DNA from: Oceanipulchritudo coccoides
GTDB taxonomy: Bacteria > Verrucomicrobiota > Verrucomicrobiia > Opitutales > Oceanipulchritudinaceae
Length of the DNA: 64,000 bases
Direction of reading: 5' to 3'
NCBI RefSeq assembly: GCF_010500615.1
Contig: NZ_JAAGNX010000001.1
Location: 558,001-622,000 of the forward strand
Shown: one piece after another, positions 8,365 to 21,870 of the stretch
Layout of the letters: each line of letters begins with the position of its first letter
Numbering within the stretch: the stretch's first letter is position 1
Program-made: the position numbers and the translations under genes
Notes under the pieces: model-generated
What the model was told of the DNA's origin: nothing
The model's database searches: none
Seen by the model: the letters and a program-made list of their open reading frames with translations, nothing else

Positions 8365-9549
8365 ATGAAGCAGATCAAGCGCGAATTGGAAGGCGAGCTG
8401 CGGAAGGCGGCAGGGATGTATCCGGTGGTGAGTGTGGTGGGGCCGCGTCAATCGGGCAAGACCACCTTGGTACGTGCGGTATTTGCGGAGAAGGCCTATG
8501 TTTCCCTGGAGAATCCGGATATTCGGGCTTACGCGGTTGAGGACCCGCGTGGATTTCTGGCGGAACACAAGGAGGGAGCGATTCTGGACGAGGTGCAACG
8601 GGTCCCAGACCTGTTGTCATATCTGCAGGAGATGGTGGATACGGATCGTCGGGCGGGCCGGTTTGTTCTGACAGGCTCGCAACATTTCCTGATGATGCGG
8701 GATGTATCACAATCCCTCGCCGGGAGGACAGCAATCCTGTCGCTGCTGCCGCTAAGTCTGGGCGAGATTCAGGAAGATTCCGGTCTGGAGAATCTGGACG
8801 GAGTGATTCAACGGGGTTTTTATCCCCGGCTACATGAACAGCAACTGGACCCGTATCCGGTTTTACGGGATTATTTTCAAACCTATGTGGAACGCGATGT
8901 GCGAAGCCTCTTGCGGGTGCACGATTTGCAGACATTTGAGACCTTCGTGCGATTGTGTGCGGGCAGGGTGGGGCAGTTGCTGAATTTGACCTCACTGGCC
9001 AATGACGCAGGCATTTCACCGACAACTGCGCGGGACTGGATAGGGTTGCTGGAAACGAGTTTTATCCTGTTCAGATTGATGCCGTACCATGCGAACATCA
9101 GCAAGCGGCTGATCAAGTCTCCCAAACTCTACTTCCACGACGTGGGCCTTGCTGCCTTTTTATGTGGGATCGAGGAAGCCCGACATCTAAAAAACCACCC
9201 CTTGCGCGGAAACCTGTTTGAAAACATGGTGATCGCCGATCTGCTTAAGCAGCGGTTTAATCGTGGGCGGGACAACCGGCTCTGCTTTTTCCGGGACAGC
9301 ACGGGCAATGAAGTGGATCTGCTGTATCCTCTCGGACCTGATTTCCTTCCGGTGGAGATCAAGGCCGGACAGACCGTGAGCCAGGACTGGCTCCGGGGAT
9401 TGAAGACCTTCAGGAAAGTACGCACCGACAAGGGTCCTCCCGGTTTGATCGTTTACGGAGGCAAACAGGGCCAGCGCCGAACAGGCGGGACGGTAATTCC
9501 TCTGGGCATGATGGTGCAGGAGATCAGAGAACTGGAAGAGAACCGTTAA
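8365..9549 (+). CDS. AAA-family ATPase with DUF4143 domain
   Basis: 394 residues from the ATG at 8365 (a TTG six codons upstream is a less likely start). Walker A is GPRQSGKTT at about residue 26. Walker B is AILDEVQRVPD at about 73, followed by the sensor-like FVLTGSQ and the SLAGRTAILSLLPLSLGE block typical of the AAA_14/DUF4143 family. The C-terminal DUF4143 region has a restriction-like fold core (NEVDLLYPLG, then PVEIKAG). These proteins are common, often horizontally moved and mostly uncharacterised; a toxin/antitoxin-like or defence role is only speculation. It lies between a dead tRNA fragment and the left end of the integrated element, so it may be cargo of an older insertion. Confidence 0.88.
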   Translation: MKQIKRELEGELRKAAGMYPVVSVVGPRQSGKTTLVRAVFAEKAYVSLENPDIRAYAVEDPRGFLAEHKEGAILDEVQRVPDLLSYLQEMVDTDRRAGRFVLTGSQHFLMMRDVSQSLAGRTAILSLLPLSLGEIQEDSGLENLDGVIQRGFYPRLHEQQLDPYPVLRDYFQTYVERDVRSLLRVHDLQTFETFVRLCAGRVGQLLNLTSLANDAGISPTTARDWIGLLETSFILFRLMPYHANISKRLIKSPKLYFHDVGLAAFLCGIEEARHLKNHPLRGNLFENMVIADLLKQRFNRGRDNRLCFFRDSTGNEVDLLYPLGPDFLPVEIKAGQTVSQDWLRGLKTFRKVRTDKGPPGLIVYGGKQGQRRTGGTVIPLGMMVQEIRELEENR

Positions 9550-9633: not shown

Positions 9634-9661
9634 AGACCCCGGCCTTGCAGGACCGGAGTCT
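9634..9661 (-). terminator. Ancestral terminator of the initiator tRNA (now separated from it)
   Basis: Arms AGACCCCGG (9634-9642) and CCGGAGTCT (9653-9661) pair at eight of nine positions and read on the minus strand into a TTTC tail. It sits just beyond the left copy of the tRNA 3' end, where the tRNA transcript would have ended before the element inserted. Confidence 0.5.
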
Positions 9662-9663
9662 AA

Positions 9664-9718
9664 TAAATTGGGTGCAGGGGAAGGATTTGAACCTCCGACC
9701 TTCAGGTTATGAGCCTGA
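9664..9718. repeat. attL: 55-bp direct repeat of the tRNA 3' half
   Basis: Identical, by base-by-base comparison, to 16860-16914. It covers the anticodon stem-loop through the 3' end of the initiator tRNA plus five flanking bases. Identity ends at TAGG here versus CGAG at the other copy. The integrase gene begins 96 bases inside, the classic layout of a tRNA-targeting tyrosine-integrase element. Confidence 0.92.
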
Positions 9719-9769
9719 TAGGAATGCTTATAAATAGCGGTATATAGGCGTTCCTATACGTTTCCTACC
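9718..9769. promoter_or_regulatory. Left arm-type integrase site candidates (TTCCTAYC repeats)
   Basis: Three copies of a TTCCTAYC-like motif lie between attL and the integrase gene: ATAGGAAT (9718-9725, inverted), GTTCCTATAC (9750-9759) and GTTTCCTACC (9760-9769). The same motif recurs at the other end of the element (16650-16815). Matching clusters at both ends are the usual form of integrase arm-binding sites; the integrase promoter must also lie here. Confidence 0.5.
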
Positions 9770-11676: not shown

Positions 11677-11702
11677 ATGCACCCCGTTATTTTAGGGTGC
11701 AT
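11677..11702 (+). promoter_or_regulatory. Hairpin/operator overlapping the excisionase start codon
   Basis: Perfect 8-base arms ATGCACCC (11677-11684) and GGGTGCAT (11695-11702) flank a 10-base loop. The right arm ends in the first two bases of the probable ATG of the next gene. As RNA it would mask the ribosome site and start; as DNA it could be a repressor operator. Confidence 0.5.
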
Positions 11703-11976
11703 GAAAGTCAAAAACCGCGAACCTAACGGGGCGAGTTTGCCCCAGCTGGAAACCGTTCCCGACAAGTGGGGAAAAGTATCAGGGCAACGCCTTCTGGAAA
11801 TTCTGTTCCCCGACGAGGCCAGCCGCCCGACGCTGCGGTTTTTGCGCAGTCTTCAAGCTAGGCGACTGATACCGTTCTATAAAATTGGCCGCCTTGTCTA
11901 TTTCGACGTAGCCGAAGCGCAGGAAGCATTGAACGACAGAATGCGCGTGAACGCTCGCTGGGAGGCAGACGCATGA
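11701..11976 (+). CDS. Excisionase-like winged-helix DNA-binding protein
   Basis: 91 residues from the ATG at 11701; an in-frame ATG at 11677 would add eight residues but lies inside the hairpin. The core TLRFLRSLQARRLIPFYKIG, followed by RLVYFDVAEAQEALN, matches the HTH_17/excisionase (MerR-like) pattern in which a helix pair is followed by a wing and a helix. In tyrosine-integrase elements such proteins bend DNA for excision or act as regulators (AlpA/Xis role). Its stop overlaps the next gene as ATGA. Confidence 0.75.
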   Translation: MKVKNREPNGASLPQLETVPDKWGKVSGQRLLEILFPDEASRPTLRFLRSLQARRLIPFYKIGRLVYFDVAEAQEALNDRMRVNARWEADA

Positions 11977-12104
11977 AGCGCAGCCAGCTGCCAAAGTCAA
12001 CACAGCGCCTTATTGACCGCATTGCCGAAGGGCGCGAAGTGAAAACGTCGAAACGTCGCCAGTTACAGTTGCGGGCAAAGGGGGTGAAGCATGAATGCCG
12101 CTGA
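11973..12104 (+). CDS. Small basic protein between xis and the ATPase gene
   Basis: 43 residues, ATG at 11973 overlapping the previous stop (ATGA), with a GGGAGG Shine-Dalgarno sequence eight bases upstream. Its end overlaps the start of the ATPase gene by 14 bases. It is rich in Lys/Arg (KTSKRRQLQLRAKGVKHE). The tight coupling on both sides argues that it is translated; it may be a nucleic-acid-binding helper. No family recognised. Confidence 0.5.
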   Translation: MKRSQLPKSTQRLIDRIAEGREVKTSKRRQLQLRAKGVKHECR

Positions 12105-13182
12105 ACTCACACTCGAAGCCCTTGCCGCAACTGGCGAAACAGCAGAAAGCAAGCGCCTGCAGGAAATTGAGAGCAGACTTGAACTGTTAAAAGAAAAACG
12201 GTTCGACCCGAACAAACCGCCGAAACCAAAGCCAGCCATTCTAACCCTAAATGGACACAAGGTTTTAACCGAAGGGAACATTTGTGGCGAAGGCGGGCAG
12301 GCAGGCACAGCAAAGTCGCACCAACTGGCAGCGATAATGGCCTGCACAATGGCCGAGGATCCCAGCAAGGGCGACTTCCTTGGCTGGCATTGCCGAAACC
12401 CTGAAGGCAAACTGGTTTTATATATCGACGCGGAACAGTCTGAAGAAGACTTCCATTCATTGCTTGATAATGCAATGCGACGGGCAGGCGCGCGAAAACT
12501 TCCCGAATGGCTACACGCCTACAATATGACGGGCGAAGAACCCGAAGCCATAAAGGCGGCCATTCAAGACCTGACAGACTTCTACGGAATGAAGGGCGCA
12601 GGCGTTCAGCTTGCTTTGTTGGACGGGTATGCCGACTTGCTACGCAACGGCCCGAATGACGAAACGGAAAGCAAGGAAACCGTTCGCTGGCTAATGGCGC
12701 TGGCCCGCAAACACGCAACGGGCATTTTCGGCGTTCAGCATTACAACGCCCAGGCTGACGGAATTAAAATGCGGGGGCATTTTGGAAGCGAACTTGAACG
12801 CAAGGCGCAGACAGTTCTTGCCCTGAAGCGTGACAATGCCGACGCCGTAACCGTTTACGCAACGAAGACGCGGGGCCGCCCTATTCCTGAACGGGAAGGT
12901 TCCCGCTTTGCATGGGACGAAGACGCCAAAATGTTTCTGTCGGTTGCCAACAAAGGGAAAATTCAAAGCGAACAGAAAACCGTTGAACGGGCGCAGTTAG
13001 TTAAAGACGCCCTGCGGAATGACTGCAGCCTATCGCACACAGAATTAACGGCCCGTATTGCCGAACTGGAACACATTAAAACGGACGCCGCCAAAAAGCG
13101 AATTAGCACAATGAGGAAGGAAGGCTTTCTGCAAATTGTTCCCGCAACCGGGTTTTATACAAAAGGGGGAAACTGTGAATAG
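12091..13182 (+). CDS. RepA-like RecA-fold ATPase (replication helicase/initiator)
   Basis: 363 residues. The P-loop is GQAGTAKS at about residue 68, a form common in AAA_25/RepA-like proteins. Walker B is LALLDGYADL near 170. A Gln-His motif (GVQHYNAQ) follows near 210. The last 60 residues look like a winged helix (LSHTELTARI, then ISTMRKEGFLQ). RepA-type hexameric helicases unwind origins of plasmids and phage satellites. The downstream repeat block and primase gene support a replication role. The product is cytoplasmic. Confidence 0.82.
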   Translation: MNAAELTLEALAATGETAESKRLQEIESRLELLKEKRFDPNKPPKPKPAILTLNGHKVLTEGNICGEGGQAGTAKSHQLAAIMACTMAEDPSKGDFLGWHCRNPEGKLVLYIDAEQSEEDFHSLLDNAMRRAGARKLPEWLHAYNMTGEEPEAIKAAIQDLTDFYGMKGAGVQLALLDGYADLLRNGPNDETESKETVRWLMALARKHATGIFGVQHYNAQADGIKMRGHFGSELERKAQTVLALKRDNADAVTVYATKTRGRPIPEREGSRFAWDEDAKMFLSVANKGKIQSEQKTVERAQLVKDALRNDCSLSHTELTARIAELEHIKTDAAKKRISTMRKEGFLQIVPATGFYTKGGNCE

Positions 13183-13327
13183 GGAACAGGGGAACTTTAA
13201 GGGAAACTTAGGGGAAACTTCCCTTGCGGGGAATAGGCAGGGGAAAAGGGAAATTACCGTATATATAAACGGTAATTCCCTTCCCCAACTTCCCCACCGT
13301 CAATTTTCACCACAGGGGAACTTTTGA
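13175..13327 (+). CDS. Possible 50-residue protein across the origin-like block
   Basis: A GTG at 13175 follows AAAAGGGGGAAACT, a usable ribosome site. The frame ends at 13327, one base before the primase ATG, which would give translational coupling. The product is Asn/Gly/Gln-rich and of low complexity because it runs through the repeats. It may simply be an open frame imposed by the repeats; reported with low confidence. Confidence 0.28.
   Translation: MNREQGNFKGNLGETSLAGNRQGKREITVYINGNSLPQLPHRQFSPQGNF
13181..13323. other. Origin-like block: GGGGAACTT iterons and a large palindrome
   Basis: GGGGAACTT occurs at 13189-13197 and 13315-13323, with variants GGGAAACTT (13201-13209) and GGGGAAACTT (13211-13220), and an inverted pair at 13281-13295. 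In the middle is a palindrome with arms AAGGGAAATTACCGT (13246-13260) and ACGGTAATTCCCTT (13269-13282) around ATATATAA. Iterons plus an AT-rich palindrome between a RepA-like gene and a primase gene are expected of a replication origin. Confidence 0.6.
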
Positions 13328-13328
13328 A

Positions 13329-15713: not shown

Positions 15714-16109
15714 ATGGAAATTGAAGAACGCAAATATCCGTTGCCGCCTGCGCCTGACTGGTTGCCCGACATGGCACAGCTAGAATACGTTCGCGTTGGC
15801 GAAATCCTCACCGAAACCCTGACGGCCCTAGACGTTGGCTGCCTCTGTGACTATTGCACAGCATGGGCCGACTTCGCCGCCTTGACTGAGGAAATCAAGG
15901 CAACCAGCGCGCCAGCAGTTCTGAAGTCTGAACGCGGGGGATTTTATATGAATCCGCTTCACGCCGGACAAACAACCGCAGCAGGCCGAATGCAGAAGGC
16001 TAGCGAAAGGCTGGGGCTGGACCCACGCGCCCGCAAACGCATTGGAATTGACGACGGCTGGCGCTTCCTGACAGACGAAGAGATTAACGCGCAGATTCCA
16101 GACTTGTAA
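15714..16109 (+). CDS. terS: Phage terminase small subunit, P27 family
   Basis: 131 residues from the ATG at 15714. The layout matches the P27 family: helical DLCDYCTAWADF-like segment (here CLCDYCTAWADFAALTEEI), a short loop (ERGGFYMNPLH) and the C-terminal signature ASERLGLDPRARKRIGI. TerS recognises pac/cos DNA and feeds the large subunit (motor/nuclease). No large subunit, portal or capsid gene follows; the next feature is a terminator. In PICIs a lone TerS redirects a helper phage's packaging motor to satellite DNA. Alternatively it is a leftover of a decayed prophage. Confidence 0.75.
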   Translation: MEIEERKYPLPPAPDWLPDMAQLEYVRVGEILTETLTALDVGCLCDYCTAWADFAALTEEIKATSAPAVLKSERGGFYMNPLHAGQTTAAGRMQKASERLGLDPRARKRIGIDDGWRFLTDEEINAQIPDL

Positions 16110-16131
16110 TTTCCTGCGGGTTAAACACACG

Positions 16132-16174
16132 AGGGGCCGTCTTCCTTGCGCGTGGGGCGGCCCCTTCTGTTTTT
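16132..16174 (+). terminator. Rho-independent terminator after terS
   Basis: Arms AGGGGCCG (16132-16139) and CGGCCCCT (16158-16165) pair perfectly, followed by TGTTTTT. It closes the long rightward operon of the element. Confidence 0.75.
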
Positions 16175-16649: not shown

Positions 16650-16815
16650 TAGGAACAAGGTAGGAAAACACCCAGAAATAGGGCAATAGAGTTGTTGACA
16701 GGCGGGAGCATTGAACCGCCAGCTAAGTTTCCTATCCGTTTCCTATCCAATTCCGTTCATTTTGGTTCATTTTGAGCGTATATTGGGCTTCCTATCGGGG
16801 AATAAGGTAGGAAAA
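16650..16815. promoter_or_regulatory. Right arm-type integrase site candidates (TTCCTAYC repeats)
   Basis: Six copies of the motif seen at the left end: TAGGAA (16650-16655) and GGTAGGAA (16659-16666) inverted, GTTTCCTATC at 16727-16736 and 16738-16747 in tandem, GCTTCCTATC at 16787-16796, and GGTAGGAA near 16806-16813 inverted. A GGCGG/CCGCC hairpin lies at about 16701-16720. The region has no gene on the plus strand. The dense motif near attR suits integrase/Xis complex assembly. Confidence 0.5.
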
Positions 16816-16829
16816 ATTCAGGCAACAAA

Positions 16830-16859
16830 AAACCCCTAAGGTGTTGATTCTTAGGGGTT

Positions 16860-16860
<1 letters not shown>
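16830..16860 (-). terminator. Element-borne terminator for the tRNA gene
   Basis: Perfect 11-base arms AAACCCCTAAG (16830-16840) and CTTAGGGGTTT (16850-16860) with a T-run when read leftward (minus strand). It is inside the element but immediately downstream of the tRNA 3' end, so it replaces the terminator lost to the other side of the insertion. Confidence 0.75.
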
Positions 16861-16948
<88 letters not shown>

Positions 16949-19670: not shown

Positions 19671-20183
19671 ATGCAAGCAAACGGGAAAAATCCGAAAATT
19701 CTGGGGGCTGTGGGAAAACGGCAGCAACTGCTGTCCGTGGGAGGAGCCTATCTCCTGACGGCGGTTCTTCTCGGAATATTCTCGGGGCTGGGAGTCTTTA
19801 CCTTCGGTTATGGGAAAGGGGCATCCTATCTGAGCAATGACCCGGCTTCCTGTGCCAACTGTCATGTCATGAACGATCACTACAATTCATGGCAGAATTC
19901 GAGTCATCACGCAGTGGCGACCTGCAACGATTGCCACTTGAGCCCTCATCCGGTTGGAAAGTGGATGACGAAGGCGGACAACGGATTCTTTCACTCACTT
20001 GCCTTCACGACAGGGAATTATCCGGACCCCATCCGGATCAAACCGCGTAATCAAAAAGTCACTCAGACTGCCTGCTTGAAGTGCCATTCAGATTTTGTCC
20101 ATGCCATGCTCCCGGTGAAGAAAGACGGGGACATGCTGGATTGTGCCCACTGCCACACGGCCGTCGGACATGCCCAACGATAA
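19671..20183 (+). CDS. nrfH: Cytochrome c nitrite reductase small subunit NrfH
   Basis: 170 residues. One N-terminal membrane helix (YLLTAVLLGIFSGLGVFTF) is followed by four haem c motifs: CANCH, CNDCH, CLKCH and CAHCH. This is the NapC/NirT-type tetrahaem quinol dehydrogenase that passes electrons from the quinol pool to NrfA. It starts 6 bases after the porin gene and is followed by nrfA. The mature part faces the periplasm. Confidence 0.93.
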   Translation: MQANGKNPKILGAVGKRQQLLSVGGAYLLTAVLLGIFSGLGVFTFGYGKGASYLSNDPASCANCHVMNDHYNSWQNSSHHAVATCNDCHLSPHPVGKWMTKADNGFFHSLAFTTGNYPDPIRIKPRNQKVTQTACLKCHSDFVHAMLPVKKDGDMLDCAHCHTAVGHAQR

Positions 20184-20235
20184 ACAGACATTCAACGAAC
20201 CAACGAATCATCATAAGCCAAGAACACATCCTGTT

Positions 20236-21870
20236 ATGAAATACAATACCAAGTCCGGATTCTTATCCCGTCCAGTCCTGCTGGGCCTTCTCACTGGGAT
20301 CACAGCGGTCGCAACAATTTTGGTGGTATACATCCTGATGACCATTCTCGAGCACAAGACGGAAGCCCGCAGTCCGTATTTGCGGATTGTCGAGCTGGAT
20401 GAAGCCAGTGTTGATCCGGCACTCTGGGGCCAAAACTGGCCTGTCCATCACGATCAATACCTGGAAACGGCAGGTGATAAATTTTACGGAGGCAGCAGTG
20501 CCATGCCGGCGAGTAAACTTGAAACGGATCCCTGGCTGAAGCGGCTTTATTCGGGCTATGCATTTAGTCTTGATTACCGGGAGGCCCGCGGCCACGCCTA
20601 CATGCTCTACGATCAGGTAGTTACCGAGCGGGTCAATCAGCGGCAGCAGTCCGGGGCCTGCCTGCACTGCCATTCCTCGCCAAACGTGCTTTACCGGAAG
20701 GTGGGACTTGAAGCGATGGGCCTTCCTTCTGACGATGAAACCCTTGCCGCGGAATTCAACCAAGAGGCAATCATCGAAGGATTCAAGCAACTGAGCCGGG
20801 AACCATACCACAAGGTCCTTGCAATGCTTGCCGAGGTGCCTGATGGCAACCCCGACACCACTCAAAAGGCGTTTGAAGACCCGCCTTTAGGTGGATTCAG
20901 TGGGAAGGAAATTCCGGAAGGGCATTTCTCCCTCGGTGAGGTCCATCCAGTCAGCTGTATCGACTGCCACGATCCGAAGACCATGGCCCTGCGAATTTCC
21001 CGTCCGGGATTCCTGCTCGGAATTGCCGATTTTGCGGAGAGCAAAGGCGAGGCTAGTATTTTTCCCAGTATCGAGAAATGGCGCAAGGGAGACCGGTCCG
21101 AGAGTTACGACCCAAATCAATTGGCAAGCCGGCAGGAAATGCGCAGCTTTTCGTGTGCCCAGTGTCACGTTGAATATTACTGTGCCAGCAAGGATACCCT
21201 TACATTTCCCTGGACACAGGGTCTGAGAGCTGAAGACCTCGAGGCGGATTGGGAGAATCGTCAATTTCCCGACGGGTCGGATTTTTATGATTACAAACAC
21301 GGGGAGACAGGAGCCAAATTGTTCAAGGCCCAGCATCCCGAGTTTGAACTGTGGAGTCAGGGAATTCATGCCCGCTCCGGCGTGAGTTGTGCTGATTGCC
21401 ACATGGCCTACGAGAGGACTGGAGCAATGAAACTCAGCAACCACAATGTCCGCAGCCCGATGGAAAATATCAACAATGCCTGCCAGACCTGTCATAAGGT
21501 TCCCGAGCAGGAACTGCGAAACCGGGTCCTCCATATCCAAGAACGGACTGAGGGACTCAAGCAACGGGCAGCAGTGGCGATGACGGATATGCTGGATGCG
21601 ATTCTCGCGGCAAAGGCTGCAGGGAAGACAGACGAAGAGCTCGAGGAAATTTACAGCCTGCAGCGTGCTGCGATGTGGCGTCTTGATTTCATCAGCAGCG
21701 AAAATTCCCGTGGATTTCACGCAGATCAGGAGTCAGCCCGGATCCTTGGTGAGTCCATTGATTATTCGCGCAAGGCCCAAGCAGCCGCTCTCAACCTTCG
21801 CGCACCACCACCAGAAGATATTTCCGGGCTTCCGCGCGAGCCCGTCAAGGGCGTCACCCCTAGCCGTTGA
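20236..21870 (+). CDS. nrfA: Ammonia-forming cytochrome c nitrite reductase NrfA
   Basis: 544 residues from the ATG at 20236 (MKYNTKSG); an upstream in-frame start would overlap nrfH. There is an N-terminal signal-anchor helix at about 12-34. Five haem motifs follow: CLHCH (142-146), CIDCH, CAQCH, CADCH and CQTCH. The active-site Tyr is in CAQCHVEYY, and the family blocks RGHAYMLYD and KAQHPEFELWSQGIH are present. The first motif is CxxCH, not the CxxCK of E. coli-type enzymes, so this belongs to the His-ligated variant group. It reduces nitrite to ammonium with six electrons in the periplasm. Confidence 0.95.
   Translation: MKYNTKSGFLSRPVLLGLLTGITAVATILVVYILMTILEHKTEARSPYLRIVELDEASVDPALWGQNWPVHHDQYLETAGDKFYGGSSAMPASKLETDPWLKRLYSGYAFSLDYREARGHAYMLYDQVVTERVNQRQQSGACLHCHSSPNVLYRKVGLEAMGLPSDDETLAAEFNQEAIIEGFKQLSREPYHKVLAMLAEVPDGNPDTTQKAFEDPPLGGFSGKEIPEGHFSLGEVHPVSCIDCHDPKTMALRISRPGFLLGIADFAESKGEASIFPSIEKWRKGDRSESYDPNQLASRQEMRSFSCAQCHVEYYCASKDTLTFPWTQGLRAEDLEADWENRQFPDGSDFYDYKHGETGAKLFKAQHPEFELWSQGIHARSGVSCADCHMAYERTGAMKLSNHNVRSPMENINNACQTCHKVPEQELRNRVLHIQERTEGLKQRAAVAMTDMLDAILAAKAAGKTDEELEEIYSLQRAAMWRLDFISSENSRGFHADQESARILGESIDYSRKAQAAALNLRAPPPEDISGLPREPVKGVTPSR

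Follow-up and report, generated by a model that had tools for sequence, protein, structure and literature searches.

The window, a stretch of 64,000 nucleotides (64 kb) from Oceanipulchritudo coccoides, contains an insertion of 7,196 bp. A direct repeat of 55 bp, identical at both ends, marks its borders and duplicates the 3′ half of tRNA-Met. All ORFs of this element are open and lie on the plus strand, and coding sequence makes up 85% of its length (Table 1). The integrase gene starts 95 bp from attL, and the gene of a terminase small subunit (TerS) lies toward the opposite end.

Table 1. Features of the 7.2-kb element and its borders (positions in the window; E-values are from profile searches)
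Feature	Position	Strand	Remarks
Presumed native tRNA-Met terminator	9634..9661	-	Outside the element, left of attL; displaced by the insertion
attL	9664..9718		Perfect 55-bp copy of tRNA-Met 3′ half; also recovered by DNA search
Putative left arm-type sites (TAGGAA)	9719..9769		9719(+), 9751(-), 9762(-); last two 11 bp apart
Tyrosine recombinase (integrase), 422 aa	9814..11082	+	phrog_1, 3.9e-25
ORF, 186 aa	11086..11646	+	No family match
HTH protein, likely excisionase/AlpA-like	11701..11976	+	phrog_1840 excisionase, E=0.02, weak
RecA-fold/DnaB-like helicase (RepA-like)	12091..13182	+	PF13481, 8e-9; phrog_243, 8.6e-5
Candidate replication origin	13160..13328		8 GGGGAA iterons; AT-rich palindrome 13249-13280
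DnaG-type primase with Toprim domain, 365 aa	13329..14426	+	phrog_239, 7e-26
ORF, 200 aa	14446..15048	+	No convincing family or phage match
ORF, 110 aa	15055..15387	+	No match
Basic ORF, 106 aa	15391..15711	+	Stop 2 bp before terS start
terS, 131 aa	15714..16109	+	Lone P27-family terminase small subunit, by profile and fold
Intrinsic terminator 3′ of terS	16123..16174	+	Stem 16123-16139/16158-16174 and T-run
Small ribbon-helix-helix-like ORF, 53 aa	16270..16431	+	PF21983 NikA-like, E=0.063, below cut-off
Putative right arm-type sites (TAGGAA)	16650..16814		16650, 16661, 16729, 16740, 16789, 16808; two pairs 11 bp apart
Element-borne hairpin terminator	16836..16858	-	Now downstream of tRNA-Met
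attR	16860..16914		Within intact tRNA-Met (16865-16941, minus strand)

Integration site and replication module

In many relatives, including a member of the same genus (G003), the tRNA search detected a hairpin directly after tRNA-Met, an arrangement consistent with an unoccupied site. Gene order around the neighbouring dehydrogenase gene did not reveal an empty site; the tRNA search supplied one. The hexamer TAGGAA is concentrated in the two att arms, which hold 9 of the 11 copies in the element, with three pairs spaced exactly 11 bp apart. Three copies in the left arm stand against a shuffle mean of 0.09, and six in the right arm against 0.22 (0/1000 shuffles in each case). These clusters are better read as the layout expected of tyrosine integrase arm-type sites. 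The end repeats were also considered as a pac site and rejected, since the 11-bp-spaced pairs flank both att cores, like integrase arm sites.

The second cluster consists of GGGGAA iterons and sits between the helicase and primase genes. Its eight copies within 169 bp compare with a shuffle mean of 1.34, and none of 1000 shuffles reached eight. It is better read as a putative replication origin than as pac.

Family searches of the element gave no match above cut-off to a virion protein, a relaxase or a defence gene, and recognised no capsid, portal, tail, lysis or capsid-resizing gene and no partition or cargo gene; three to four ORFs have no assigned function.

Outside the element, the gene immediately to the left of attL (8365-9549) codes for an AAA ATPase which reads like the AAA_14/DUF4143 type. 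To the right, at 19671-21870, the sequence reads as a pair of genes for an NrfH/NrfA-like cytochrome c nitrite reductase and, after them, a regulator of the Rrf2 type. In another genome (G135:C1 452501-480000, loci L253/L254), an intact tRNA-Met and a 51-nt partial copy lie 22.7 kb apart, and between them are genes for an ArdC-like protein and for a large protein which reads as a relaxase of the TrwC type. Apparently, this is another element using tRNA-Met; we rejected it as a satellite, as it looks like a relaxase-bearing region.

TerS protein and its lone state

The preliminary description had assigned the 131-aa ORF (ATG at 15714, TAA ending at 16109; exact coordinates confirmed) to P27-type TerS by a C-terminal signature, and both the profile search and the structure prediction which it proposed agree with this assignment. 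The signature LGLDPRARKRIG occupies residues 100-111. The protein matches PF05119 with E=1.3e-12 and 48.4 bits (curated cut-off 24.7), the equivalog TIGR01558 (sm_term_P27) with 60.2 bits (curated cut-off 45.6), and the TerS profile phrog_83 with 8.5e-17. The AlphaFold2 model, built on a shallow alignment of three sequences, has a mean pLDDT of 76 and predicts the order helix, long helix, beta hairpin, helix. In a Foldseek comparison with viral models (BFVD) it gave 12 matches at E<=0.001, of which the named ones were all terminase small subunits. The same model found no match in the PDB, but this carries little weight, since a search of the PDB for P27-like sequences was also negative. Judged by three profile libraries and the predicted fold, the ORF genuinely codes for a P27-family TerS, although the 'GARGxKPK' stretch of its relatives is absent from the N-terminus. 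A second weak TerS match in the host genome (C3:336637, E=0.061) was rejected; it lies inside a 994-aa gene on the opposite strand.

It had also been stated that a terminator and not terL follows terS, and this is what we found. The stem-loop has a 55-nt fold of -26.3 kcal/mol, and no TerL was detected in the 64-kb window by tblastn with three Verrucomicrobiota TerL proteins. The locus thus lacks the arrangement of a complete terminase, with terL beside terS. The Terminase_1-type TerL ATPase domain (PF03354) was absent from the whole host assembly (3.52-Mb, 99.4%-complete) in a profile search.

How the gene is arranged elsewhere was surveyed in 384 genomes of the class and 357 of the phylum, the two sets overlapping. 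Eight other genuine P27 TerS genes were detected in Verrucomicrobiota (two in G113, and one each in G198, G226, G281, G305, G313 and G934), and each of the eight is followed at a short distance by a TerL ORF, which in G226 is truncated. Among the P27 TerS genes of the searched Verrucomicrobiota, the lone terS of the element is therefore the exception. One more candidate, on contig C81 of G934, was rejected as a chance match in non-phage DNA. At two of these loci (L028 and L030, on G113:C18 and G281:C8), opposite-strand genes after the TerS-terL pairs read like DUF4062 or KAP-type NTPase, which suggests defence-type genes inserted within degraded prophages.

Related elements and known systems

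The closest primase (44% identity, 6.3e-90) belongs to an element of the same genus (G003/L127), whose integrase, HTH protein (5.8e-4) and primase are homologous to those of the 7.2-kb element. This element (L127/L231) was considered as a terS-bearing sister and rejected: its contig breaks off short of where terS would lie, and no P27 TerS was found in its genome. No other searched genome carries a sister element with terS, so that the element is known from one genome. IMG/VR scans with the helicase, TerS, the 110-aa ORF and the integrase found no relatives, and P27 TerS was present in 0 of 50 IMG/VR records bearing a related primase. The replication module alone is no proof of a satellite, because members of the primase family are also found in phages, on plasmids and in integrative elements which have no TerS.

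A second element with lone P27 TerS (L134; JAIPDO010000060.1, 3385-11199) was detected in a Desulfarculaceae MAG. It is about 7.8 kb long and lies in tRNA-Leu; its TerS matches PF05119 with 2.8e-6 and is about 22% identical to that of the 7.2-kb element. This is an independent lone-P27 element in another phylum. The two share tRNA integration, the order integrase, ORF, HTH, primase, lone P27 TerS, and the lack of TerL. In contrast, primase and helicase are fused in L134, which also has additional ORFs, one of them HIRAN-like, and an att repeat of 27 bp which is imperfect.

Among known systems, terS-bearing PICIs, which include SaPIs and Gram-negative PICIs, share the order xis - pri/rep - ori - terS (PMC6092414). 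The 7.2-kb element resembles them in its specific att site with a terminal integrase, a likely excision/HTH gene, a pri/rep module with a candidate origin (here helicase, iteron cluster and primase), a lone terS toward the far end and the lack of recognised virion and lysis genes. A candidate for the PICI master regulator (stl, or alpA in Gram-negatives) is the HTH protein, with its weak excisionase match. It differs from these PICIs in its size of 7.2 kb, co-directional genes with no stl-type divergent repressor seen, a TerS of the P27 family, a helicase and a primase encoded by separate genes, the lack of any recognised gene for interference or capsid, and a Verrucomicrobiota host. PICMIs of Vibrionaceae are also minimal (~6 kb), with integrase, AlpA and primase and without a capsid-remodelling gene, and they package as 8-copy concatemers (PMC10803314). 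However, they have no terS and are integrated beside fis, while the element described here has terS, lies in tRNA-Met and belongs to an Opitutales host. In HK97, TerS forms a nonameric ring which finds cos (PMC11331095). The other P27 TerS genes detected in Verrucomicrobiota adjoin a phrog_9/Terminase_1-type TerL, as in HK97-type systems, whereas the element has no TerL. HK97 gp1 does not match PF05119, and therefore its residue-level mechanism is not transferable to the TerS of the element.

Possible role of the lone TerS and alternative explanations

We consider it probable that the element is a complete, minimalist, PICI-like phage satellite of 7.2 kb, in which TerS determines packaging and redirects the large terminase of a helper. 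The gene identity, its lone status, the element ends, the arm-site and iteron clusters and the lack of recognised virion genes are observed. Helper dependence, induction, TerL recruitment, a packaging site and concatemer packaging would follow the pattern of known satellites, with SaPIs as the model for a TerS which brings the helper TerL to a satellite site (PMC6092414). On infection by a helper phage, the integrase and the HTH/Xis-like protein would act at the TAGGAA arm sites to excise the element, which would then be replicated from the iteron origin into concatemers by the helicase and primase that it encodes. Oligomers of the P27 TerS, assembled on a site in the DNA of the satellite, would engage the helper large terminase, presumably of Terminase_1 type, so that helper capsids would be filled with satellite DNA. 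A typical siphophage head could take about 5-6 tandem copies of 7.2 kb, and since no capsid-resizing gene was recognised, full heads with 5-6 copies would be likeliest.

The preliminary description had proposed just such a switch of the helper motor to a pac or cos site of the satellite. Its lone TerS and satellite setting are well supported by the intact ends, the lack of recognised virion genes, the TerL partner at all eight other genuine P27 loci and the parallel in L134, and the switch itself is plausible; the helper and the site were not found. No packaging site was found in the element, where none of the repeat clusters fits better as pac, and no resident helper was found in the host genome. 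PF03354, the one TerL family searched for across this genome, is absent, and a helper with that TerL would therefore be exogenous. Verrucomicrobia phage P8625 is unlikely as a helper, being annotated with a GpA-type TerL.

The same gene content may be explained otherwise. A decayed prophage which lost its late genes and kept terS alone would account for the phage-type primase and TerS and for a gene order which stops where the terS-terL late module would start; the truncated terL of G226 indicates that such damage is known elsewhere. However, neither the att and arm sites nor any of the ORFs is damaged, terS has a strong terminator of its own, no fragment of TerL was found in the window, and decay does not readily fit the independent L134, of similar size and the same composition. 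We regard this explanation as unlikely. Still less probable is that the satellite TerS serves mainly in interference, forming mixed rings with the P27 TerS of the helper or competing against it, so that the helper protein is blocked or redirected in the manner of Rpp in E. coli PICIs. Rpp attaches to the TerS of the helper and changes which DNA it recognises (PMC6739421); in both cases one satellite protein would act at the TerS step of helper packaging, and the altered N-terminus of the lone TerS points in the same direction. Yet Rpp is a binder of helper TerS, whereas the protein of the element is a TerS in its own right, with a match at equivalog level.

It is very improbable that the insertion is a non-satellite integrative element, either plasmid-like or a cargo island, whose terS is carried along as a passenger or now serves as a DNA-binding regulator. 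Related primases do occur on plasmids, and integrative elements of Pseudomonas carry them next to other cargo and have no P27 TerS. Against this, no relaxase, partition or recognised cargo gene was found in the element, its TerS still matches the family by profile and by fold, and P27 terS without terL recurs independently in a second short element.

If the satellite interpretation is true, terS-type packaging piracy reaches a new phylum and the P27/Terminase_1 motor, and the element offers a minimal system, with one packaging protein in 7.2 kb, for testing motor re-targeting by TerS alone. In the open-access literature searched, we found no report linking P27 TerS to satellites, and phage satellites and Verrucomicrobiota are barely mentioned together, in passing only. 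More tentatively, and with some doubt, the two lone-P27 elements may represent a previously undescribed, phylum-spanning type of tRNA-integrated satellites of ~7-8 kb with integrase, HTH, primase and lone P27 TerS, which would re-aim Terminase_1-type motors of Verrucomicrobiota and Desulfobacterota phages and be packaged as concatemers without capsid resizing.

Two further loci with related replication genes were observed. At L034 (643-1224, G343:C62), a TerS of the Terminase_2 type (PF03592 2.2e-7, phrog_51) lies beside a related primase-helicase and a helicase-like gene, where the contig ends. L038 (4402-6033, G380:C75) is an element with integrase and primase-helicase in the same order, and it also carries a protein reading like a tail tape-measure; its fused primase-helicase contains the helicase domain of the 7.2-kb element (1.6e-40).
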